From NCBI GenBank assembly GCA_945907065.1, contig CAMDSC010000011.1:1-64000 (forward strand): a DNA stretch of 64,000 nt, read 5' to 3'. Below are positions 7,426-41,585 of this stretch, piece after piece (position 1 is the stretch's first letter; every line of letters starts with the position of its first letter). The translations under genes were made by a program, and so were the position numbers. Source of the stretch: Chitinophaga pinensis (GTDB taxonomy: Bacteria > Bacteroidota > Bacteroidia > NS11-12g > UBA9320). Under the pieces are notes generated by a model. That model worked only from the letters and a program-made list of their open reading frames with translations. It ran no database searches and was not told the DNA's origin.

Positions 7426-8235
7426 ATGGACTATAAATTCAAAAAAATCCTAATTGGCTTTGATAACTCTGCTTCATCAGTTATTGCATTGCAAAAAGCA
7501 CTTCATACTTGTAAAGTTTTTAATACACCTTTATATGTTGTAAATGTTAAAGATCCTAAATCTAATGCCAAAGGATACAATATAAATATTCAAGAAGTGG
7601 CTGATACCTTTGGTGTGCCTATTCATTATATGGAAAAAACAGGTAATGTGAGTCGGGAAATTCATGCCACTGAAAAGGAGATAAAAGCCGACCTTATATT
7701 TATGGGTGCCCATGGTTTAAATGGGTTTCAGCCCTATTGGATTGGAAGCAATGCCCTTAGAGTTATTTCAGCCTCTAACTGTCCTGTAATTTCGGTTCAG
7801 GCCGATTCAGCTCAAACTGATTTTAAAAATATAATATTACCTCTTGACAATAGTTCAGAAACTCGTCAAAAAGTTCCTTATGCTGCAGTAATGGCCTTGG
7901 CTTTTGGAGCTACAATCCATATATTAAGTGTGAGCAAAGACAAAACTGAAGAAACCCGCAATCGGATAGAAATATATGGGAAACAAACCTTAAAATATTT
8001 AACAGATATAGGAATAAAAGTTACATATGATTTAAGACAAGGCAGCAGTGTAGCACAAACCTGTATTGATTACGCCATAGAAAGAAATGCCGGACTGATA
8101 ATGATGATGACCGAAACCGAAAGCAACAACTGGTTTATGGGCACAGTAGCGCAGCAATTGGTAAATCATTCACCCGTGCCAATTCTTTCAATTCATAGCC
8201 GCGATTTGTATCTTTCAGGAGACACAGGGTATTAA
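7426..8235 (+). CDS. Universal stress protein, tandem UspA domains
   Basis: A 269-residue cytoplasmic protein of two Usp domains (about 1-128 and 132-260). The first keeps the ATP-binding signature G94-xx-G97-x9-G107-S108 (GAHG ... GSN). The second has lost it (MTETESNNWFMGTVAQQL), so probably only the first binds nucleotide. Tandem Usp proteins accumulate under starvation or respiratory stress; the partner is unknown. A possible -7 box TACCTTCG lies at 7400-7407, 19 bases before the ATG, without a clear -33 element. It is a single gene. Confidence 0.93.
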   Translation: MDYKFKKILIGFDNSASSVIALQKALHTCKVFNTPLYVVNVKDPKSNAKGYNINIQEVADTFGVPIHYMEKTGNVSREIHATEKEIKADLIFMGAHGLNGFQPYWIGSNALRVISASNCPVISVQADSAQTDFKNIILPLDNSSETRQKVPYAAVMALAFGATIHILSVSKDKTEETRNRIEIYGKQTLKYLTDIGIKVTYDLRQGSSVAQTCIDYAIERNAGLIMMMTETESNNWFMGTVAQQLVNHSPVPILSIHSRDLYLSGDTGY

Positions 8236-25749: not shown

Positions 25750-26514
25750 ATGAACTTAAATTTTAATACCAAATTAGCCGAAGGATATTCCAGTAATTCT
25801 CAAATTGCAAGAGTTTTATCTGAAGCTTGGGTTAAGGAAAACTCATATTGTCCAAGTTGTGGCAATCTTCCTTTAAATGAATTTGAAAATAATAGACCAG
25901 TTGCAGATTTTTATTGCCTTAGTTGCAGCGAAGAATTTGAATTAAAAAGTAAAATCGGATTAATGTCAAACACCATTACAGATGGTGCTTACGCCTCAAT
26001 GATTCAAAGAATTAATTCAAATAAAAATCCCAATTTTTTCTTTTTAACATATACGAAACAATGGTCAGTAAATAATTTTTTGATTATTCCGAAGCAATTT
26101 TTTACACCTGAAATAATTATAAAAAGAAAACCTTTAGCAGAAACTTCAAGAAGAAAAGGTTGGATAGGGTGCAATATAAATATTTCAAATATTGCCGAAT
26201 CCGGTAAGGTTTTTTTGGTTAAAAATGCTGAACCAATAAATAGGGACATAGTAAAAGAGTCTTTCAATAAAACTCTTTTTCTTAGGGAAAAAAGTACTGA
26301 CTCAAAAGGTTGGCTATTGGATTTAATGAATTGTATTGATTCAATTTCAAAAGATTCATTTACTTTAGATGATGTTTATAAATTTGAAGATAAATTAAAA
26401 GTCAAATACCCTAATAACAATTTTATTAAAGATAAAATTAGGCAACAACTTCAAATACTCAGAGATAAAAATTTAATTGAATTTACTGGTAGAGGTAATT
26501 ATAAGAAAGTATAG
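25750..26514 (+). CDS. dpnI: DpnI-like methyl-directed type IIM restriction endonuclease
   Basis: A 254-residue protein, the same length as pneumococcal DpnI and similar along the whole chain. It has a zinc finger C34-C37/C56-C59 (YCPSCG ... YCLSC) and a PD-(D/E)xK nuclease core with D53 (PVADFYC), E64 and K66 (EFELKSK), at DpnI numbering. There are conserved stretches around 73-105 (NTITDGAYASMIQR, NPNFFFLTYTK) and a C-terminal winged helix (about 183-254; IRQQLQILRDKNLIEF, GRGNY) that in DpnI reads the methylated adenine. DpnI cuts G(m6A)TC, so this should destroy Dam-methylated incoming DNA. It is followed two bases later by a 65-aa gene and faces a Dam-like methylase gene. Confidence 0.95.
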   Translation: MNLNFNTKLAEGYSSNSQIARVLSEAWVKENSYCPSCGNLPLNEFENNRPVADFYCLSCSEEFELKSKIGLMSNTITDGAYASMIQRINSNKNPNFFFLTYTKQWSVNNFLIIPKQFFTPEIIIKRKPLAETSRRKGWIGCNINISNIAESGKVFLVKNAEPINRDIVKESFNKTLFLREKSTDSKGWLLDLMNCIDSISKDSFTLDDVYKFEDKLKVKYPNNNFIKDKIRQQLQILRDKNLIEFTGRGNYKKV

Positions 26515-26727: not shown

Positions 26728-27204
26728 TTACAATTCTATAAACTTTCCCTCAATTCCAGATTCCTTTAAAATTTTTGCGTTGTTTTTCCCATAGGCTATA
26801 AAAACACTTGGCGCTCCTGGTGTTCCTCCTATCCCTCCACTTACATGATAAAATCTGATTCTACCTTTTACAAATAAAATTCCGGAAGCACTATCCCAGA
26901 CATTTTCAAAAAATAATTTTGTTTCCGTTCTGGCAAATAAAACAGCTATTCCATTTCCGTGAGATTTCAATTTGCTGAGCCATAGGTTTAAATTCTTATC
27001 ATAAGGCGGATTACAAAAAACTCTTCCAAACCATTCCTTGCTTAATCCATCATCCAAAATAGTAAAATTATTCTTTGCATGCAAAAAAGGTGGGTCGATA
27101 GGACAACATGGGTCTAAATCAAACTCACCTAATTTTTTAACAAGTTCCGGCGGTGTCAGCCATTCTACTTTACCAGTTTTAGATTTCTCAAATGATGTAT
27201 TCAT
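26728..27204 (-). CDS. Phage-type Dam-like DNA N6-adenine methyltransferase
   Basis: A small methyltransferase of the phage Dam family (PF05869 type). From MNTSF: SKTGKVEWLTPPELVKKLG, then FDLDPCC (SAM-binding region), DDGLSKEW, and the catalytic NPPY motif in RVFCNPPYDKNL, followed by VLFARTETKLFF. It would methylate adenine N6 with SAM; target specificity cannot be read from sequence. An ATG at 27252 would give 174 residues, but family N-termini begin near SxKTGKxEWxTP, so the ATG at 27204 is preferred. It is convergent with the DpnI-like pair, 13 bases away. Coexistence with a G(m6A)TC-cutting enzyme is paradoxical. Confidence 0.85.
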   Translation of the reverse strand: MNTSFEKSKTGKVEWLTPPELVKKLGEFDLDPCCPIDPPFLHAKNNFTILDDGLSKEWFGRVFCNPPYDKNLNLWLSKLKSHGNGIAVLFARTETKLFFENVWDSASGILFVKGRIRFYHVSGGIGGTPGAPSVFIAYGKNNAKILKESGIEGKFIEL

Positions 27205-27218
27205 ATTTTCTAATTCTA

Positions 27219-27234
27219 GATCTAAAGTGAGATC
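27219..27234. promoter_or_regulatory. Pair of GATC sites at the 5' end of the methyltransferase gene
   Basis: GATC occurs at 27219-27222 and 27231-27234, 12 bases apart, just upstream of the preferred ATG (27204). If the enzyme methylates GATC, its own leader carries two targets, and the DpnI-like nuclease could cut there. Function is inference; GATC also occurs elsewhere in the window. Confidence 0.3.
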
Positions 27235-27384
27235 ATTTTTTTGATATATCAACTTTGTTAATATTGCTTCTATTAATATCGGTCTGTATTTATAAAGAAG
27301 AGAAATAAATCAAGTGTTAACAACGAAATATTTATTTGTAGTATTGCATGAATAAATTTAACAAATAAGCTTTAAAAAACCTAA

Positions 27385-27930: not shown

Positions 27931-28500
27931 CTAATCAATTAAGTCGTTATATTTTGATTCTGCAACAAATCTGCTTTTACGCTGAAGTAATATTGGATAC
28001 AGATTAAAAAGAATTGAGAAAATTGACAAGCAAATAAAATCAAGGTACTTGCCATTTAAGAGATATTGAAATTGCACAAAAATCGTTATGATTAAAGTAA
28101 ATAAATGGGATGTTTCCGACCGTTTGGTTTCTTCGTAAAACACTTTTACATACTCTCCACCCCTCCCCTTTAGATAAACACGTTGGTTTAAATGTTTAAA
28201 AAAAGAATGAACCAAAATATGTCTAAATCTTTCAACTCCTAGGTTTTTAAAATAATTTTCCGTCTCAAATTTCTTTAGCTTATAGTATACTTTTGGCAGC
28301 CTAAAGTACTTGAATATTTTAAAAAAGAAGTACCCGAATAATATTATAACCCAAACTTGTACAAACTGAAGAACTATACTCATCAGTGATGAATTATCAT
28401 TTATTGAAACTTTATAAATATTAATTTCAATAAAGAAAATACAGCTAAATATTACTATTAGAGTAATTAATTTAACGCCGAAACTATTTTTCTGTAACAT
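27931..28500 (-). CDS. Small integral membrane protein, weakly resembling CrtO-type acyltransferases
   Basis: About 189 residues (ATG at 28500; a GTG at 28524 is possible but lies deeper in the upstream gene). Two hydrophobic segments are near the N-terminus (11-30 and 43-62) and two near the C-terminus. The C-terminal pattern ETKRSETSHLFTL ... LFNLYPILLQRKSRF resembles ETxRAExxHW...NLPxIxxQRxxR of glycosyl-4,4'-diaponeurosporenoate acyltransferases. This is a recollection-level match. Its 5' end overlaps the 3' end of the N-terminal cusA fragment by 17 bases, right at the place where that gene is broken. Confidence 0.6.
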   Translation of the reverse strand: MLQKNSFGVKLITLIVIFSCIFFIEINIYKVSINDNSSLMSIVLQFVQVWVIILFGYFFFKIFKYFRLPKVYYKLKKFETENYFKNLGVERFRHILVHSFFKHLNQRVYLKGRGGEYVKVFYEETKRSETSHLFTLIITIFVQFQYLLNGKYLDFICLSIFSILFNLYPILLQRKSRFVAESKYNDLID

Positions 28501-29770
28501 TTGATTTATTAAACTGAACTTCACTTAAATGCCTGTATGAATTTTCGACCATTACAATTCCATCGTCTACAATTACTCCAATTGCTAAAGCAATTCCTGT
28601 TAACGACATAATGTTAGATGAAAAACCAAAAGCATTTAGTAAAATAAAAGCAGATGCAACCGCAATAGGAATTTGAATAAGGATGATTAAAGCACTCCGC
28701 CAATGAAACAAGAAAATTAAAATTACCAGTGTTACACTAATAAATACTTCCAACAAAGTTCCCTTTACTGAATGGATGGCTTCTTCAATTAACCCACTTC
28801 GGTCATAATCAATTTTAAACTTCACTCCTTCAGGCAATCCCTTTTGCACTTCCTCCATTTTTAATTTTACATTTTTGATTGCAGCATCGGCATTTTCGCC
28901 ATAGCGCATCACCACTATTCCTCCTACCTTCTCTCCTTCACCATTCCCATCAAAAATGCCATAACGAATATCTCCTCCCATTTGAACAGAGCCTACATCT
29001 TTAATCCGAATCGGTACATTGTTAGATGTGCTGAGCGCAATATTTTCAATTTCACTCATGGATTTGATATAACCCAAACCTCGCACGATGTAAGATTTAT
29101 CACTCATCTCAAATTTTCGACCGCCAACATCATTGTTATTAGCCCTCACAGCTTTTAAAACATCCATCATCGAAAGATTATAATAGTTCAATTTTACGGG
29201 GTCGATAATCGCTTGATACTGTTTTTGAAACCCACCAAACGATGCCACTTCACTCACTCCGGGAACCGTTTGCAATGCAAATTTTATATACCAATCCTGC
29301 AATGCACGTTGTTCGCCAAGGTCATACCCTTTGGCATCCAGTGAATACCAAAAAATATGGCCTACCCCAGTTCCATCCGGACCAAGTGTGGGTGAAATGC
29401 CTTCGGGTAAAAGTTTTTGAGCAAAATTTAATCGTTCCGACACACGGGTTCTGGCCCAGTAAATATCTACATCATCCTCAAATACCAAATACACGAAACT
29501 CATCCCAAACATGGAGGCCCCGCGTATGTTTTTTAATTTGGGCACACCTTGTAAATTGGAAACCAAAGGATAAGTAATTTGGTCTTCTATTACCTGCGGA
29601 CTTCTTCCCATCCATTCGGTAAAAACGATGACCTGATTTTCGGATAAATCAGGAATGGCATCTACAGGATTATTTTTTACTTCATAAATCCCCCATCCCA
29701 GCATTCCTGCTGCAACAAGCAATACAATTAACCGATTGCGAAGTGAAAATGAAATGAGTTTTTCTACCAT
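28484..29770 (-). CDS. cusA: N-terminal part of a heavy-metal efflux RND pump (CusA/CzcA), separated from its C-terminal part
   Basis: 428 residues corresponding to the first about 420 of a roughly 1,040-residue CusA: TM1 (RLIVLLVAAGMLGWGIYE), first periplasmic porter loop (PDLSENQVIVFTEWMGRSP to about residue 335), TM2-TM4 with SGIALAIGVIVDDGIVMVEN, which holds the proton-relay Asp. The frame then stops after SEVQFNKSNVTEK, in the cytoplasmic loop before TM5. The missing part, starting KERLKIIEKASKQVG, is encoded 5 kb upstream in the same operon at 33740-35638. The two pieces fit end to end without loss. They may assemble as a split pump, or be a broken gene. Confidence 0.9.
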   Translation of the reverse strand: MVEKLISFSLRNRLIVLLVAAGMLGWGIYEVKNNPVDAIPDLSENQVIVFTEWMGRSPQVIEDQITYPLVSNLQGVPKLKNIRGASMFGMSFVYLVFEDDVDIYWARTRVSERLNFAQKLLPEGISPTLGPDGTGVGHIFWYSLDAKGYDLGEQRALQDWYIKFALQTVPGVSEVASFGGFQKQYQAIIDPVKLNYYNLSMMDVLKAVRANNNDVGGRKFEMSDKSYIVRGLGYIKSMSEIENIALSTSNNVPIRIKDVGSVQMGGDIRYGIFDGNGEGEKVGGIVVMRYGENADAAIKNVKLKMEEVQKGLPEGVKFKIDYDRSGLIEEAIHSVKGTLLEVFISVTLVILIFLFHWRSALIILIQIPIAVASAFILLNAFGFSSNIMSLTGIALAIGVIVDDGIVMVENSYRHLSEVQFNKSNVTEK

Positions 29771-29819
29771 AATATTTAAAGCATCAATTTAAGATCATCA
29801 AAGATTTAAAATAATTTAT

Positions 29820-30059
29820 TTAATGTTTGGTTAATTTGGTTAAATCCATTTTACAGGTTGGACATTGTCCCATTATATCTGAATTAATTTGATGATGCAT
29901 TTCACACTGGTAAAATGTTTGACCACTTAACAGTTTCATGGTGTCAAGGTCAAATTTTTGAGTCTCATTTGCTGATTGTCCATCATTTTTTGTTGAACTG
30001 TTGCAAGATGCAAACACCATTGAAACTGCTACTAACCCTAAAATAATTACCTTTTTCAT
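29820..30059 (-). CDS. Heavy-metal-binding domain lipoprotein
   Basis: A 79-residue lipoprotein. The signal ends in ASC (Cys near residue 19). The C-terminal half is a heavy-metal-binding domain: FYQCEMHHQINSDIMG followed by CPTCKM, equivalent to YxCxMHPxI...GxCPxCxMxL in CusB proteins. It probably hands Cu or Ag to the efflux system in the periplasm. It lies in the efflux operon between the second adaptor and the N-terminal cusA piece. Confidence 0.88.
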   Translation of the reverse strand: MKKVIILGLVAVSMVFASCNSSTKNDGQSANETQKFDLDTMKLLSGQTFYQCEMHHQINSDIMGQCPTCKMDLTKLTKH

Positions 30060-30103
30060 ATATAAATTTTTTATGTTTAATTTTTCTATTGTTTATTACC
30101 AAA

Positions 30104-31303
30104 TTACATATCCATTCCTTCCATCGGATTTGCCCCTCTTTTAAAAACATACTCACTATTTAATAAGTAGGCTCCTGTAATAACTATAACCTCCCCTTCC
30201 TTAATGCCCGATACTATTTCAACCATTTGACTGTTTTGCATTCCAAGATTAACCATTTTATTTTCAAAAATTCCATTACTATTTCTTACCCAAACATTTG
30301 CACCCTTGCTATCCTGAATTATAGCATCGATTGGAAGTGCCAATGCCGTTTTCTTTTCTGTTTGCAAGGAAATATTTGCAAGCATACCAGGTTTTATTTG
30401 TTGCGAAGGGTTCGTTATTTTAAATCGTGCCAGTACATATCTCTCAGGCGATTGAACCTGTGGATCAATAAAAATAACCTTTCCTGTAAATAATTTCTCA
30501 CTAGCAGCCTCAATGGAAAAATTAGCTTCGGTACCCTGTTCTATATATTGAAGGTAAGGCAAATATAATTGAGCTTCTACCCATAGGGAATTGAGTGAAG
30601 CCAATCGAAAAAGGGTATTGCCTATAGATACATAATTCCCTTCAACAATTGAAATTTCACTTACATAGCCACCAGTAGTTGCAAAAACTGGCACGGTTTG
30701 CATAACCTCTTTCGATATTTTAATTTTATTAATCTGAGCTTCACTCATACCATAAAGCAGTAATTTATTTTTTGAGGCTGTTCCAAGTCCTATTAAAGGT
30801 GAATTACTTTGTAATGAAATTATATATTCTTGTTGTGCATTATTTAAATCTTCACTATAGATTTCATATAATAATTGCCCCTGGTTTATATAGTCACCTA
30901 CATTTTTTACCAATAATTTTTCAATTCTGCCATTTACTCTAGCACTGATAGCATCGGCCAAATTTTGGTCAACAGTTACTCTGCCTGTAAGTGTAATTTC
31001 CTTTGCCAAAATATGTTCACGCAAAGTATCGTAAGATATATTTGCTAACTTTATTTGTTGCTTGCTCAATTGTATTTGCCCTGATTTGAGGTTATTTTTC
31101 TTAACCATAATAAGTTCCATATGGCAAATAGGACAAATACCTTCCTTGTTTTCTATTACTTGTGGATCCATAGAACAGGTGTAGTATTCATCTTCTCCTG
31201 CCATTTTTAAGTGGTTACCTTTGTTATTACAAGATAAAAGGGCGGTTGACGAAATAATTTGCACCATCCATAATAAACTAATAATTTTATTTACCTTATT
31301 CAT
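30104..31303 (-). CDS. cusB: CusB-type periplasmic adaptor with N-terminal heavy-metal-binding domain
   Basis: About 399 residues. Signal with lipobox LLSC; heavy-metal-binding domain directly after (YYTCSMDPQVIENKEGICPI and CHMELIMV); then the membrane-fusion (HlyD/CusB) body with beta-barrel and lipoyl segments (ARVNGRIEKLLVKNVGDYI, PVFATTGGYVSEISIVEGNYV, IKPGMLANISL). It links the inner-membrane pump to TolC and may deliver metal. The ATG at 31303 (MNKVNKIISLLW) is preferred over 31330; it overlaps the upstream gene by eight bases. A second adaptor gene precedes it, so the operon has two. Confidence 0.9.
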   Translation of the reverse strand: MNKVNKIISLLWMVQIISSTALLSCNNKGNHLKMAGEDEYYTCSMDPQVIENKEGICPICHMELIMVKKNNLKSGQIQLSKQQIKLANISYDTLREHILAKEITLTGRVTVDQNLADAISARVNGRIEKLLVKNVGDYINQGQLLYEIYSEDLNNAQQEYIISLQSNSPLIGLGTASKNKLLLYGMSEAQINKIKISKEVMQTVPVFATTGGYVSEISIVEGNYVSIGNTLFRLASLNSLWVEAQLYLPYLQYIEQGTEANFSIEAASEKLFTGKVIFIDPQVQSPERYVLARFKITNPSQQIKPGMLANISLQTEKKTALALPIDAIIQDSKGANVWVRNSNGIFENKMVNLGMQNSQMVEIVSGIKEGEVIVITGAYLLNSEYVFKRGANPMEGMDM

Positions 31304-32504
31304 CTTCTTTCGTAATAATAAAACTTTCACTATCTACCATATACTGAGCATTGGCTGCTACTTGGTCATCAATGTTTAAACCTTGAATTATCTGAACTAA
31401 TGAGTCAGATACAAACCCTGTTCTTATTTTTTTAGATTGAAAAGCCTCTTTGGTCTTTAAAAAAACGATTTGATTTTGGCCAATATTAATTACTGCTTTT
31501 CTTGGCAACCACAACCCAACTATTTCTTTGGTATTTATTTTGGCATTAACCAATGTGCCAATTTTTAAATTATGTTTTGATTCATTTTCCAAATAAACTC
31601 TTGCCTTAATGGCTGATGCATTTTGGCCAGTAACCGGTTCAATATAATTAATTTCAGCATCTATTACGTGCGTTGGGTTAGTTTCGGATGTTAATGAAAC
31701 CTTCTCTCCAACGTTTATTAATTTAGCATCTATAGGAAAAATATTTAATACTGCCCAAATTCGACTGGTGTTATAAATAGCAAAAATCGGCTGGCCACTT
31801 TCGATATACATTCCTTCTTTGATTGAAAGTGCCGAAGTTTGTGATGAAGGTATATTTTCAATTTGTCCCTGAGTTGAAGAATTTGACGAATTCCTATTTC
31901 CTGAACCCATGCCATTACCCATGGATGGTGTAGCATTGGCAACTCCGTTTGATAATCCTATATCATGAATATGTCCGCTATACTGGCTGTAAACAGGTAA
32001 AGGATTGATTTGTTTTCTTAACATTTCAATTTGTCGAAGTTGTTCTTCAGTTACCCCAAGCAATTTTAATTTCTGCTTGGATGATTTAATAAGAGCAGCC
32101 TCACCGATTGGATTGTTCAACAAAAAAATAAGATTCTGTTGTTCACTTAAAATTTCCGGACTATAAATATCCATGATACGCTGCCCTTTGGAAACCATCT
32201 CAAAATTATACCTAACATATAATTTCTCTATTCGTCCGCCAAAACGGGCACTAATATTATTGAGCAAACTTGGGTCGTATGCAATAATACCGGTAGCTTC
32301 CAAAATTGGAGCAATAGATTTTTGTACTGGTAAAATCGTTTTTACTTCGCTAAACACCGTTTGATTTGCAGGTTGTTCCAACCCATTTAAATCTCCAGTT
32401 TTTGTGGAAAGATGTTCCGGTTCGCTATTATTTTTACAAGAAAAAAGAGTTATTAGGTAACAAATAATAAGCAATAGCTGCTTTAACCTTAGACCATTAA
32501 CCAT
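31296..32504 (-). CDS. CusB-type periplasmic adaptor without heavy-metal-binding domain
   Basis: About 402 residues from the ATG at 32504 (MVNGLRLKQLLLIICYLI), which sits just after the tolC stop; the longer frame to 32540 overlaps tolC. Lipobox LFSC; HlyD-type body (ISARFGGRIEKLYVRYNFEM, GEKVSLTSETNP, GTLVNAKINTKEIVGLWLP). A Gly/Ser/Asn-rich insertion with MGNGMGSGNRNSSNSS lies near residues 200-225 and is likely a flexible loop. With the next gene it may form a hetero-oligomeric adaptor. The eight-base overlap suggests translational coupling. Confidence 0.88.
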   Translation of the reverse strand: MVNGLRLKQLLLIICYLITLFSCKNNSEPEHLSTKTGDLNGLEQPANQTVFSEVKTILPVQKSIAPILEATGIIAYDPSLLNNISARFGGRIEKLYVRYNFEMVSKGQRIMDIYSPEILSEQQNLIFLLNNPIGEAALIKSSKQKLKLLGVTEEQLRQIEMLRKQINPLPVYSQYSGHIHDIGLSNGVANATPSMGNGMGSGNRNSSNSSTQGQIENIPSSQTSALSIKEGMYIESGQPIFAIYNTSRIWAVLNIFPIDAKLINVGEKVSLTSETNPTHVIDAEINYIEPVTGQNASAIKARVYLENESKHNLKIGTLVNAKINTKEIVGLWLPRKAVINIGQNQIVFLKTKEAFQSKKIRTGFVSDSLVQIIQGLNIDDQVAANAQYMVDSESFIITKEDE

Positions 32505-32514
32505 TAACCATGGT

Positions 32515-33753
32515 TTATCGTATTTCCATTTCTCTCTCATAATTAACTTGTAAATTTAGTAAGGTATTTAAGCGATCGAGTTCATTCATTTTTGCCATGC
32601 GATACATTTTTAATCCATCCAAAACCAAAAATAAATCTTCGGTGTTTTGCTCATAGGAAAGCATTGCCGCTTGATAACTATTTATGTAAGCGGGAATAAT
32701 ATTCTCCTTATAATTTGCTAATTGTTTTTTGGCTGATAATATCTGAGTTTGTAAGGAAGTAATCATTCCAGCCGTTTCATTTATTAGAGATTTTTTTTGA
32801 AAACTTATCGCATTGGCTGCATTGTTCAATCCTTTGATGTTTGCCTTGTATTCTTTAGAAGCAAAGGGTGCTATAGGAATTACCATCATTGCCATTGCTG
32901 AATACAATTTTGGCATTGGCATCACTCTGTAAGTTTGCATGTGGGTAATAGAAAATCCAAAATCGGGCAACCGTTTTGATTGTTCTACTTTCTGCTGAAG
33001 CCTAACCAAATCAATGCTGGCATCATATTGTTTTATATCGCTTCGCGAAGAGGCAATTAGTGCAGTATCTGTTAATTTGATCTCATAATGTTTTGGTTTT
33101 AAAGTTGTATCAATATCAAAAATAAAAGATTGATCAATATTCATTAAGGTATTAATCTCCACATTTTTCATTCTAATATCCGCCATAAACATCGTTTGCA
33201 TATTTCTCAATTCAAATAAATCGGCCTGAGCTTTGTATATATTACTAAGTTTTTCTTTGTTGTATGTGTATCGCAGTTGCGCCACCTTTAATACATACTG
33301 AAGTAAGGAATCGGTTTGAATTAATACCTCGTATTTTTTTTTCAAAACAATCCATTCATTATAATTCTGTTTTGCCATGGCAAACATTCCATTTTTTTTG
33401 GCCCCTTTGCCTTGTTTTTCAATTGACAACATACCCTGCATCAAATTATAATTGGCACTTTGCTTGGTTCGATTAGGTATCATTTGTTGCCCTGAGAACA
33501 TCCACATACCTTCTCTAAAGTTATTGTAAGGAGTTTGCCATGGACCTGTAGAAAAAGTAGAAGGCATCCAGCTTTTTGCACCTTCCGAATAATTATTTAT
33601 GGCACTTATTTGTTCATCATACATTTTAAGCATCGGGTTATTTTTCTCTATTCTGTTTAATACTGAATCTAGGGTAAAAACCTGTGCAAATAGCCCATTA
33701 GATAGTATGCAACAGATAATAAACAATAAGTAAATCTTTTTAAATCGCTTCAT
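32515..33753 (-). CDS. TolC-family outer-membrane efflux protein
   Basis: A 412-residue protein with signal peptide (ending LFAQ, about residue 24) and two long alpha-helical hairpin regions typical of TolC/CusC (for example VLKVAQLRYTYNKEKLSNIY and AYINSYQAAMLSYEQNTEDL). It forms the outer-membrane channel of the efflux system. The N-terminal half is Met-rich (MWMFSGQQMIPN, MQGM, MFAMAKQ), which suits a copper or silver path. Its start overlaps the end of the C-terminal cusA piece by 14 bases. Confidence 0.9.
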   Translation of the reverse strand: MKRFKKIYLLFIICCILSNGLFAQVFTLDSVLNRIEKNNPMLKMYDEQISAINNYSEGAKSWMPSTFSTGPWQTPYNNFREGMWMFSGQQMIPNRTKQSANYNLMQGMLSIEKQGKGAKKNGMFAMAKQNYNEWIVLKKKYEVLIQTDSLLQYVLKVAQLRYTYNKEKLSNIYKAQADLFELRNMQTMFMADIRMKNVEINTLMNIDQSFIFDIDTTLKPKHYEIKLTDTALIASSRSDIKQYDASIDLVRLQQKVEQSKRLPDFGFSITHMQTYRVMPMPKLYSAMAMMVIPIAPFASKEYKANIKGLNNAANAISFQKKSLINETAGMITSLQTQILSAKKQLANYKENIIPAYINSYQAAMLSYEQNTEDLFLVLDGLKMYRMAKMNELDRLNTLLNLQVNYEREMEIR

Positions 33754-35638
33754 GTTTTCCTACCAATAAAATTTTACCATACTTTTTCAATTCCCTTAAT
33801 TTCACTATTTCAAAAATGACCGGTGTTACTAATAAAACATAGATTGTAGATGTAATAACACCACCTATTAATGGAAGAGTAATTGGCAGCATCACATCGC
33901 TTCCTGTTCCTGTTGCCCAAAGGATAGGTACGAGGCCAAAAAGTGATACCGAAACGGTCATTAATTTAGGTCGTAAACGCTGAACTGCCCCATCCATAAT
34001 GTATTTACGCAAATCATATTTTGAAATAGTTTCCGATGAATTTCCTTTATCGGCCACTAATTTCTCCATATATTCGTTCAAATATATCATCATGAGCATA
34101 GCTGTTTCTACTGCTACACCAAACAAGGCTATAAATCCTACAGCTACTGCTACCGAAAGGTTTACTCCATAAAAATATACCATGTAGACGCCACCTATTA
34201 AAGCAAAAGGAACTGTTATCATAGTAAGTAAAGCTTCTTTCAAAGATTTATATGTAAAATACAAGACTATAAAAATAATGAGAAGTACTATGGGCATTAT
34301 TAATGTCAAAGTTTTGTTGGCTCGAATCTGATTTTCCCATTGTCCGCTCCATTCAAGGTTATAACCTGTGGGAAGTTTGGAAAACATTTTATTTAATTTA
34401 GCCTGAGCTTCCTTTACTGTACTGCCTAAATCACGGTCGCGAACATTAAATAAAACCGTACCGCGAAGCATGGCATTTTCTGAATTTATCATCGGTGGAC
34501 CTTCGGATATATTTACTTCGGCCACTGATGATAAAGGAATGGTGCCATAATTCATCGTCTTTACAGGTATTTGATTAATAGCTTCTAAACTATTTCGATA
34601 GTCTTGGGCAAATCGGGCATTAACCGTAAATCGTTCCCGCCCTTCAATTGTTGAGGTAAGATTCATCCCACCTAATGCCGTTTCCACATACATATTTACA
34701 TCATCCACGCTCAAACCATATTTGCCTATTTCGTCTTTCCTTATAGTGATATCTATATATCTGCCACCCGTAATTGGTTCAACATATAAATCTTTAATTC
34801 CATTTATTCCTTGCAATTCATTTTTCATTCGAGTAGCAAGCTTATATATTGAATCCAGATTTTGACCATAAATTTTTAGCCCGACATCTGTTCTTATTCC
34901 AGTGGATAGCATATTAATCCGGTTAATAATGGGTTGGGTAAAACCATTAACCACCCCGGGTATTTGAAGCTTCGCATTCAATTCATTGATGATATCATCT
35001 TTTGTGATTTCGGCTCGCCATTGTGCTTGAGGTTTTAACAAAATGATGGTTTCAATCATACTAATGGGAGAATTATCTGTAGCTGTATTGGCTCTACCAG
35101 CTTTCCCCAATACATTTTCTACCTCCGGAACCGACTTAATTATTTTATCCTGAACCTGTAAAATCCTCTTCACCTCTGAGTTAGAAACATCCGGTAAGGT
35201 GACTGGCATGAACAAAATAGAACCTTCATCCAATGGCGGCATAAATTCTGTTCCCATTCTAAACATCATCCCAATACCAATTATCAGAGCAATTATATTT
35301 ATTCCAATAACCGTTTTGCGCCATTGCAAACACCATGAAATAATGGGTGAATATATTTTTTCGAGGATTCGAGTTACAGGATTTGCACTTTCAGGTTTCA
35401 GGTTTCCTTTGAGGAAAAAAGAAATTAAAACTGGGGCAAGTGTAATGGCCAAAAAAGCATCAATAATTAGGATAAACGTTTTTGTCCACGCAAGAGGATG
35501 AAACAATTTTCCTTCTATACCAGTTAATAAAAACACAGGGAGGAACGACGTAATTACAACTATAGTGGAGTAAAATACACCCGGCCCTACTTGCTTTGAA
35601 GCTTTTTCTATAATTTTTAAACGTTCTTTTTTGTCCAT
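33740..35638 (-). CDS. cusA: C-terminal part of a heavy-metal efflux RND pump (CusA/CzcA), separated from its N-terminal part
   Basis: 632 residues from the ATG at 35638 (MDKKERLKIIEKASKQVG); a TTG at 35683 would add 15 residues of no family character. It covers TM5-TM12 and the second porter loop (ITSFLPVFLLTGIEGKLF, GTEFMPPLDEGSILFMPVT, NRINMLSTGIRTDVGLKI, GGRYIDITI). The Met of INMLSTGI matches one of the three metal-binding Met of E. coli CusA, while the GM of GMTVADV appears here as GL (KYGLSVDDV). Residues before KERLK are encoded at 28484-29770. It is the first pump gene of the operon. Confidence 0.9.
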   Translation of the reverse strand: MDKKERLKIIEKASKQVGPGVFYSTIVVITSFLPVFLLTGIEGKLFHPLAWTKTFILIIDAFLAITLAPVLISFFLKGNLKPESANPVTRILEKIYSPIISWCLQWRKTVIGINIIALIIGIGMMFRMGTEFMPPLDEGSILFMPVTLPDVSNSEVKRILQVQDKIIKSVPEVENVLGKAGRANTATDNSPISMIETIILLKPQAQWRAEITKDDIINELNAKLQIPGVVNGFTQPIINRINMLSTGIRTDVGLKIYGQNLDSIYKLATRMKNELQGINGIKDLYVEPITGGRYIDITIRKDEIGKYGLSVDDVNMYVETALGGMNLTSTIEGRERFTVNARFAQDYRNSLEAINQIPVKTMNYGTIPLSSVAEVNISEGPPMINSENAMLRGTVLFNVRDRDLGSTVKEAQAKLNKMFSKLPTGYNLEWSGQWENQIRANKTLTLIMPIVLLIIFIVLYFTYKSLKEALLTMITVPFALIGGVYMVYFYGVNLSVAVAVGFIALFGVAVETAMLMMIYLNEYMEKLVADKGNSSETISKYDLRKYIMDGAVQRLRPKLMTVSVSLFGLVPILWATGTGSDVMLPITLPLIGGVITSTIYVLLVTPVIFEIVKLRELKKYGKILLVGKHEAI

Positions 35639-35784: not shown

Positions 35785-36177
35785 TCAAATAAGAAATACC
35801 CTATCCAAAATATAAATTGGAACTTTTGGCTTGAATTGCGGTGGAAGATAAAAATCAGAAACAGTATAATTTAGTTGTGTTTCGAGAGCTAAAACATTCT
35901 GATTAAAGGGTTTAAAAATCAATTTAAGATGGGTTGATTTAAAAGTGAAATAATTTATTTTAGCATTATCAATTTTTGCTTTAAAAACAGTCGTTTTGTC
36001 TTTACAGCAACTTGATTTCATAGCTTTATCTCCACAATCACATTTTTGCTTTTCTGTAGAAAAGAAATTAATGGATGAAATTTCGCCACCGCAGTAATGC
36101 AACGTAATTGCCATTCCTGAGTTAGAAATCAAGAAAAAAACAACAAGCAATATGGCAGATATCCGTTTCAATTTCAA
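35785..36177 (-). CDS. HYC_CC_PP-type small exported protein
   Basis: A 130-residue protein with a signal peptide (about 1-22), then HYCGGEISSINFF, CDCGDKAMKSSCCKD, and a C-terminal YLPPQFKPKVPIY. This His-Tyr-Cys / Cys-Cys / Pro-Pro arrangement is a Bacteroidota family that usually stands before cusA-type efflux genes and probably binds Cu or Ag; that link is recalled, not shown here. It lies about 150 bases upstream of the C-terminal cusA piece on the same strand, so it likely opens the operon. Confidence 0.82.
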   Translation of the reverse strand: MKLKRISAILLVVFFLISNSGMAITLHYCGGEISSINFFSTEKQKCDCGDKAMKSSCCKDKTTVFKAKIDNAKINYFTFKSTHLKLIFKPFNQNVLALETQLNYTVSDFYLPPQFKPKVPIYILDRVFLI

Positions 36178-39722: not shown

Positions 39723-40718
39723 TTACTCAATTGATTTATCCTTCACCTTAAACCGATATGAAAATCCAAATGTAGCCTGATATTGAGAAGCTATTTGAGT
39801 TTTGGTTACATTCTGGTAAATTGGGATTTCGGTTAGGGCATAAAGTGTTATTTTTTGCTGATAGGTGTAACTTACTTGAGGAGCAAAAAACACTTTTTTA
39901 TAACCTGTTGCGGCTGGGTCATAGTTGGGATAGGCATGCACTAAGATATCTTTATTTAGCTTCATTTTATTTAGCCATTCCCCACGAACCTGTAAGGTAA
40001 CTCCTAAACTTTTTAAAAATGTTTTACTTGCAAAGAATCCTACACTAAAAAAATCACCATGTTTTTCGCCCATTTCATTCCAGCCCCTTTTTATGTAGGT
40101 AGCGTTTGTAAATACTCTAAATTTTGAATAGTCTTTTAAATAAAAGGTATAAAAAATAAGGTCTTGTGCCCCCGAGGATGGTTGAACTGCCAAAGTTTTT
40201 CTTACATAAAAGACTTCATTTGAAATAGGGACGACATAGCGCGATGAATCATTATATTTTCCTAAAGGTATTTTGAAACCCAAACCAACTGTAAGTTCCG
40301 TTTTTTTATTCTTTTTGGTTTTGTTAATTATATCATAACGTGGAAAAATTATCAAATCACCAATTCCTTTGGATTTAATAGTTTCGGCTTTATTTAATGT
40401 TACCTGGGTTTTATTCAAAAAATAACCCATTTCTAAATACATGCTAAAATCCTTTGTAATTCCATAACCCAAACGATTGTAAATATAATTACTGCTAAAA
40501 TTATCTAAAAAATCCTTAGCAGGTTTATCACCGGTTAAAAATTTTCGGGTGGTTATATGCTGAAAATTTGAGTTAATATCAAACTGATGTTGCATAAGCA
40601 CCCCTTGTGATGCGCCTCCAGCAATTGGACTTCCGCTTCCTCCGGCACAACATTGTGCACTGGTTTTAAAAACCGATAATCCTAAAATACTGAAGAGAAG
40701 TATTTTTTTTAAGTTCAT
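39723..40718 (-). CDS. Outer-membrane beta-barrel protein with N-terminal CCAGGSG motif
   Basis: A 331-residue protein: signal peptide (about 1-21), then QCCAGGSGSPIAGGASQGVL, then alternating amphipathic strands with aromatic girdles and a C-terminal strand ending FGFSYRFKV, as in porin-like barrels. The CCAGG start of the mature protein suggests a metal or thiol function at the periplasmic side. Function unknown. It follows the thioredoxin-like T9SS gene after 19 bases and probably shares its mRNA. Confidence 0.78.
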   Translation of the reverse strand: MNLKKILLFSILGLSVFKTSAQCCAGGSGSPIAGGASQGVLMQHQFDINSNFQHITTRKFLTGDKPAKDFLDNFSSNYIYNRLGYGITKDFSMYLEMGYFLNKTQVTLNKAETIKSKGIGDLIIFPRYDIINKTKKNKKTELTVGLGFKIPLGKYNDSSRYVVPISNEVFYVRKTLAVQPSSGAQDLIFYTFYLKDYSKFRVFTNATYIKRGWNEMGEKHGDFFSVGFFASKTFLKSLGVTLQVRGEWLNKMKLNKDILVHAYPNYDPAATGYKKVFFAPQVSYTYQQKITLYALTEIPIYQNVTKTQIASQYQATFGFSYRFKVKDKSIE

Positions 40719-40737
40719 ATTAACAATAAAGATATGA

Positions 40738-41520
40738 TTAATGAGAAACTGCTAATCTTAGAGTTTTTGTTCCAAAAGGTTCGGTCACTTTCACCAAATA
40801 AAGTCCTTCAGAAATATCTGAGGTAGAAATTTCAATATCATTTTTGCCCTGAGCTAATAATTCATTATTTATAACTGTCATTACTTTTTGTCCTAATGAA
40901 TTAAAAACTTCAATTGTTACTTCTACCGAATTTTTTAGAGTCAAAGAAACATTTGCATTAATAATGGCCGGATTAGGATTAATAGAAATAGCTACATCGG
41001 ATTCCGGATTTTTGCTAATGGAAGCAGCGGTTAAAGCAGCATTAATGGCCACTTGAATCTTGGTTACATCACCGGCGGCGGTATTTATTTCATTAAAAAA
41101 AATTGTGTGATTTATTCCGCCCATTATCACAATTTTTGGCATTCCTGATGAGCCATACTTACTCATATCTATAACACTATTTGAGAACCGGGTGGTATTA
41201 GGCATACTGTATTGATCCACCCAACCATTTAATTGTGTACAGGAATTATTGGCATAATCATCAGCTATATACATAAATACTTTGCCGGGATTAGTGGCAG
41301 CATAACTTTGAACAATATTATAAGCGGTTTTTGATGGAAGAAGACAGGATGAACAAGGCATCACCCAATCCAGCACTATTACTTTCCCACTATTCAATTC
41401 AGCAAATAAATCGTGGTTATTTCCGCTGCAATCATTGCAATTAAAATTGGTAGCTGTTGTTTGTGAGAAGCCGGAACAGGCTATTAAAACAAAGGAAAAT
41501 AATGAAATTATTTTTTTCAT
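40738..41520 (-). CDS. Thioredoxin-like exported protein with T9SS sorting domain
   Basis: About 260 residues from the ATG at 41520 (MKKIISLFSFVLIACSGFSQ signal). A thioredoxin-like part (residues 25-165) has the redox-type motif CSSC in VIVLDWVMPCSSCLLPSK and a cis-Pro-like SGMPKIVIMGG. The last 75 residues (ISINPNPAIINANVSLTL ... GLYLVKVTEPFG) are a T9SS type A sorting domain. It should be a surface-exposed disulfide protein. It lies upstream of the CCAGGSG barrel and may act on it. Confidence 0.85.
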   Translation of the reverse strand: MKKIISLFSFVLIACSGFSQTTATNFNCNDCSGNNHDLFAELNSGKVIVLDWVMPCSSCLLPSKTAYNIVQSYAATNPGKVFMYIADDYANNSCTQLNGWVDQYSMPNTTRFSNSVIDMSKYGSSGMPKIVIMGGINHTIFFNEINTAAGDVTKIQVAINAALTAASISKNPESDVAISINPNPAIINANVSLTLKNSVEVTIEVFNSLGQKVMTVINNELLAQGKNDIEISTSDISEGLYLVKVTEPFGTKTLRLAVSH

Positions 41521-41585
41521 GAAATTTATAATTTTAAACAAACTTACAAATATTAAAATAGAATAAACAATGACCTAAGTCATAT

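Follow-up and report, generated by a model that had tools for sequence, protein, structure and literature searches.

How does an RND permease come to be encoded by two genes which stand in reverse order within one operon, and could such an arrangement still give rise to a working pump? This question is raised by a stretch of 64,000 nucleotides from Chitinophaga pinensis (GCA_945907065.1, contig CAMDSC010000011.1, positions 1-64,000; hereafter termed the window), in which a CusA-type permease is split at 28484-35638 on the minus strand. RND pumps are usually studied as single 12-TM chains; here, the chain is cut between the aspartate of the proton relay and its partners. A full-text search of the open-licence literature returned no description of a split CusA. 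The findings are, as a whole, best explained by a functional Cu(I)/Ag(I)-type RND pump whose permease consists of two polypeptides and which would have originated by gene fission and a later relocation of the N-terminal (N) piece. We assign this reading a probability of roughly 0.87.

Genomic Organization of the Split Pump Operon

All genes of the locus are located on the minus strand and would be transcribed in the order HYC_CC_PP, C-terminal (C) piece, tolC, cusB1, cusB2, HMBD lipoprotein and N piece. The C piece (33740-35638; 632 aa) starts with an ATG at 35638, stops at 33740 and comprises TM5-TM12 together with the second periplasmic domain, as identified by its ORF, matches to ACR_tran (positions 415-1020) and TIGR00914 (432-1042) and alignment to residues 431-1049 of CusA in the PDB. 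The N piece (28484-29770; 428 aa) was assigned in the same way to TM1-TM4 and the first periplasmic domain (ACR_tran 2-422, TIGR00914 1-429, PDB CusA 8-430). ORFs and profiles thereby confirm the original prediction that both pieces lie on one strand, with the C piece coming first in the operon and the N piece last.

Between the two pieces, a TolC-family outer-membrane factor (OEP, PF02321; 32515-33753) overlaps the C piece by 14 nt and is followed by two CusB-like adaptors. Adaptor 1 (31296-32540; PF16576, TIGR00999) has no HMBD and overlaps tolC by 26 nt, while adaptor 2 (30104-31330; PF16576, PF19335, TIGR01730 above cut-off) carries an N-terminal heavy-metal-binding domain; its ORF runs into that of adaptor 1 and its true start is uncertain. 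A small lipoprotein of 79 aa with an HMBD-like motif (29820-30059; 23.4 bits for PF19335 vs. a cut-off of 23.6) is encoded immediately 5' of the N piece. The locus is flanked by a gene for a HYC_CC_PP family protein 5' of the C piece (35785-36177; NF047658 above cut-off), which precedes the pump in many relatives too, and by a CrtO-like acyltransferase gene (27931-28524; PF18927), whose probable ATG at 28500 was deduced from the alignment with G006, an assembly of the same genus. According to coordinates and sequence, adjacent genes from the C piece onward either overlap by 14-35 nt or are about 45-50 nt apart and consequently read like a single operon. Scans of the locus for sigma-70-type promoters and terminators yielded nothing clearly above chance, and a scan for the two-box promoter pattern of the Bacteroidota type gave no full match.

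The Two Pieces Complement Each Other

Together, the two pieces cover the ACR_tran profile end to end (2-422 in N and 415-1020 in C). Each of them alone misses the cut-off of 701 bits of the CusA/CzcA model TIGR00914 (471 bits for N, 619 bits for C), which is exceeded only jointly, and the locus does not encode a single 12-TM polypeptide but two ORFs 4 kb apart with four and eight predicted TM helices, respectively. The break falls into the cytosolic loop between TM4 and TM5, a loop whose length and sequence vary across the whole family. The coverage of ACR_tran and TIGR00914 thus bears out a CusA-type pump split at this loop with its parts in reversed order. AlphaFold models of the separate halves were of moderate confidence (pLDDT 67), and the best PDB match of both was CusA. 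As each half scores below the NCBIfam cut-off for CusA, metal-resistance surveys based on this cut-off would miss split pumps, and the present case suggests that many ACR_tran "fragments" annotated in Bacteroidota may be whole pumps.

In E. coli CusA, D405, E939 and K984 form the proton relay and M573, M623, M672 and E625 the Cu(I) site; transport is abolished when D405, E939 or K984 is mutated (PMC8092243). In our alignment, D405 corresponds to D402 of the N piece, and E939 and K984 correspond to E512 and K559 in C-piece numbering. The methionine triad and E625 are found as M145, M195, M244 and E197 of the C piece and are invariant in alignment A1, and T987 and K482 of CusA are likewise kept, both in the C piece. 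Of the TM methionines that form three pairs in E. coli CusA, the alignment retains only M391-M1009 and M410, so that two pairs are lost. Given this loss, the path of the metal across the membrane may differ from that in E. coli CusA.

It had also been claimed that the two pieces fit end to end with no residues lost. This is roughly right, yet partly a coincidence: the N piece of G006 ends in VQFKE, a similarly short tail is present in the other permuted operons, and in the window the reading frame continues into the start of the CrtO-like gene, which supplies the last codons of the tail NKSNVTEK. As judged by this comparison, the last roughly eight residues of the N piece are not ancestral.

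Split CusA Pumps Across Bacteroidia

In a survey of 395 sampled Bacteroidia genomes, in which N pieces were checked at those loci whose DNA was retrieved, the C piece had 64 strong matches, of which 57 were located in open frames of 630-730 aa and the other seven in longer, fused frames. Both pieces were present at 78 of the 80 best named loci. Among these 78, the N piece lies upstream of the C piece as a separate gene in 75 cases, two loci are permuted and one is fused. The 75 N-upstream loci include 26 with overlapping frames (18 of them as ATGA) and 39 with a gap of 0-15 nt, i.e., 65 with one or the other arrangement. Carriers include isolates of Flavobacterium, Sphingobacterium, Mucilaginibacter, Chitinophaga, Pontibacter, Hymenobacter and Runella, and the finished plasmid of Haliscomenobacter hydrossis carries the two halves as annotated CDS. 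The two-gene CusA is therefore common across Bacteroidota and not peculiar to the window. The distances of N and C pieces correlate with r = 0.85 over 79 split pumps (the best of 500 shuffles reached 0.15), a co-divergence that fits co-inherited partners and would be expected for linked genes as well.

Three individual loci deserve mention. On each of the contigs of L122 and L128, two split pumps are found near each other, with identities of about 62% and 68% for the N pieces of L122. On a plasmid of Hymenobacter radiodurans (L177, 5676-8991), the annotation of the C piece begins only at 7894 and the match falls into two pieces, which might reflect an extra break or a sequencing error.

Alternative Explanations for the Two Gene Pieces

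All named genomes with the permuted order are MAGs, and the window belongs to a draft genome of 63 contigs (99.9% complete), in which the front of cusA could have been misplaced to the far end of the operon during assembly. The same order (C, tolC, cusB1, cusB2, N) was, however, found in eight assemblies spanning several families: the window, G006, G155, G298, G273, L056, G528 and G322, the last being the same stretch as L055 and counted once. In most of these operons, the HMBD lipoprotein gene sits directly 5' of the N piece. The pieces of G006 are 92% (C) and 94% (N) identical to those of the window; over all seven further assemblies, the C pieces are 84-92% identical and the flanking genes differ. 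Eight assemblies, some of them from other families, are very unlikely to share one misjoin, and a misassembly, which had been named beforehand as a refuting outcome, is rejected and retains a negligible probability. Recoding would provide another way to make the split merely apparent, as a frameshift or stop readthrough might normally join the pieces into one chain. In most relatives the frames indeed overlap by 4-14 nt or are only a few nt apart, which invites this suspicion for the split-adjacent operons. In the permuted operons, however, it is impossible, as the N piece lies 4 kb downstream of the C piece, and other genes separate the halves in an isolate of Chitinophaga japonensis (L125, a methyltransferase-like gene) and in L121 (two small genes and a lipoprotein gene). 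Recoding is thus rejected as very unlikely, and N and C are indicated as separate products; herein lies the main value of the permuted clade, which points to two separate polypeptides where the split-adjacent operons leave the matter under suspicion.

Gene fragments are a common form of decay, and the pieces might accordingly be the drifting remains of a broken cusA. Between the window and G006, dN and dS amount to 0.038 and 1.29 for the N piece and to 0.045 and 1.25 for the C piece, with the differences concentrated at third codon positions in both halves. The resulting dN/dS of about 0.03 in both halves is a rough value, since dS is near saturation, and should be read as well below 0.1; both pieces are under strong purifying selection. 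Furthermore, the catalytic residues are conserved, the split form is maintained throughout a class, and a search for RND domains detected no second CusA in the 99.9% complete genome that could take over. The only other full-length RND gene in this genome encodes 1141 aa on contig 3 and is 26% identical to the C piece where it matches. A pseudogene is rejected on the grounds of selection and seems extremely improbable, and the second refuting outcome named in advance, a separate intact cusA beside decaying pieces, does not apply. Alternatively, one half alone could be a working transporter, with the other being vestigial or serving a separate role. The C piece would be the candidate, as it holds the methionine triad and two of the three relay residues. 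Against this stand the location of D405, which is essential in E. coli CusA, solely in the N piece, the about equal constraint on both halves and the presence of N with C at every retrieved locus long enough to show both. Such a division is therefore considered very improbable.

A Proposed Two-Piece Pump

From the observed split, gene order, conservation, selection, tree nesting and distribution of residues, we infer that the pieces most likely co-assemble into a pump with three N and three C subunits. In this model of a two-polypeptide permease, N (TM1-4) and C (TM5-12) would insert into the membrane separately, in line with an even number of TM helices in each and a break on the cytosolic side. 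They would then associate into a CusA-like protomer and further into the trimer, whose partners would be the two CusB-like adaptors and the TolC protein encoded in the operon. The substrate, Cu(I)/Ag(I), and the stoichiometry of the two adaptors are likewise parts of the model rather than observations. As the proton relay is divided, with D405 in N and E939 and K984 in C, neither half should be a complete transporter. The original suggestion that both halves could form a working split RND pump is likely to hold, given purifying selection, the divided relay and the intact triad.

A split class and, in one clade, separated genes provide a ready test of the folding of RND protomers and of proton coupling. 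A more far-reaching and quite unlikely proposal is that split CusA represents a phylum-wide class of two-polypeptide RND pumps, in which the free N subunit could be exchanged or separately controlled. If true, the supply of N could set pump assembly, or N could be shared between coexisting paralogous split pumps such as those of L122 and L128.

Comparison with Known Systems

E. coli CusA, an HME-RND exporter of Cu(I)/Ag(I) (PDB 3K07, 3NE5, 7KF5-8), resembles the window pump in its fold, the sum of 12 TM helices, the methionine triad with E625, the relay D405/E939/K984 and an operon with CusB and TolC homologues. It differs in that the window pump consists of two polypeptides broken at TM4-TM5, has two differing CusB-like adaptors, keeps the TM methionine pairs only partly and shows a permuted gene order.

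SecD/SecF constitutes an RND-type 12-TM unit that many bacteria naturally make as two proteins and others as a fusion. Among natural RND proteins of two chains, it is the closest kind known. In contrast to the window pump, the break of this RND-related protein export factor is at the TM6/TM7 internal repeat and its function is another one. With 24.5 bits against a cut-off of 160 for the SecF model TIGR00966, the window pump does not belong to SecD/SecF. Heteromeric RND pumps of the MdtBC/SmeJK type likewise employ two different inner-membrane RND proteins per pump; each of these, however, is a full-length 12-TM permease, whereas the window pieces are fragments of one permease and neither is full length, which sets them apart from the MdtBC type. 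Longer CusA relatives of Bacteroidota with frames of about 1440-1540 aa belong to the same superfamily and phylum and are 31-36% identical to the C piece, but they are probably products of fusion, not fission. Their extra length is presumably TolC, making them probable CusA-TolC fusions.

Probable Fission and Relocation, Possible Re-Fusion

A tree was calculated from N plus C sequences with 45 rows, including seven of the eight permuted operons, with bootstrap values that were not fully settled. All seven fall into a single clade (100/100), which is nested among split-adjacent operons, and the sister of this clade is G256 (96/92) with the order tolC-cusB1-cusB2-lipo-N-C. This nesting indicates that fission came first and that the permutation was a later move of a free-standing gene. 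According to the tree, the split predates the permutation, and what was relocated was an already separate gene. The original prediction had called for a circular intermediate or a move of the 5' third of an intact gene; this requirement is not borne out, as the tree places an earlier and widespread fission before the move. The third route it named, tandem duplication with matching losses, is kept as one of the simplest, although it would have started from already split genes. Duplicate remnants (a second N, C or tolC piece) were not found around the permuted operons and G256, weak tblastn matches included, and duplication and loss consequently remain a putative mechanism.

In the resulting scenario, a CusA gene would have been cut at the cytoplasmic TM4-TM5 loop early in a Bacteroidota lineage, leaving adjacent and usually overlapping halves, and re-fusion or repeated fission would have followed in a few lineages. 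Indeed, the split family also contains fused members (L064, L167, L168 and L169). A single split clade that leaves these out is rejected by an AU test, which implies re-fusions or repeated fissions and an N/C boundary that was lost or gained several times. L168 is a fused gene whose linker, S-MTALERMNIIEHSS, resembles the start MTTAERIKIIE of split C pieces, which points to a re-fusion in this case. The N gene would then have moved from the front of the operon to its end in the ancestor of a single clade. The simplest routes for this move would be tandem duplication with complementary loss and ordinary translocation. The permuted clade would subsequently have spread horizontally, with one copy entering a site at an LptG-PPIase pair in the ancestor of the window genome and G006. 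In G004 and G002, which belong to the same genus as the window, this pair is found at the same place without the operon, and this synteny supports the acquisition of the whole block.

An excised circle of the operon that re-inserted at another breakpoint would produce the permuted order as well, and the third cyclic order in G256, sister to the permuted clade, is what circles with their cyclic shifts would yield. The same orders can, however, be obtained by tandem duplication and complementary loss, no integrase is seen at the junctions, and in L056, which branches close to the base of the clade, the HMBD lipoprotein gene is still located 5' of the C piece with N alone at the operon end, as a single-gene move would leave it. 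A circular intermediate is thus possible but not needed, with the odds clearly against it compared with the relocation of a free-standing N gene.

At the G256 locus itself (L166, 3077-10188), which carries the third cyclic order, a probable P-type ATPase gene is located 5' of the pump genes. In the window, two proteins are encoded at 39723-41541 on the minus strand, a CCAGGSGSP protein of 331 aa and one of 267 aa that bears a Por sorting tail; homologues are present beside the pump in G006 and directly downstream of the N piece in L056, and they appear to travel with the pump. On the other side of the operon, a gene for a DpnI-family endonuclease (25750-26514, plus strand) adjoins that of a phage-type Dam N6-adenine methyltransferase (26728-27252, minus strand). 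The DpnI family cuts methylated GATC, and should the methyltransferase mark this site, the pair would be self-damaging.
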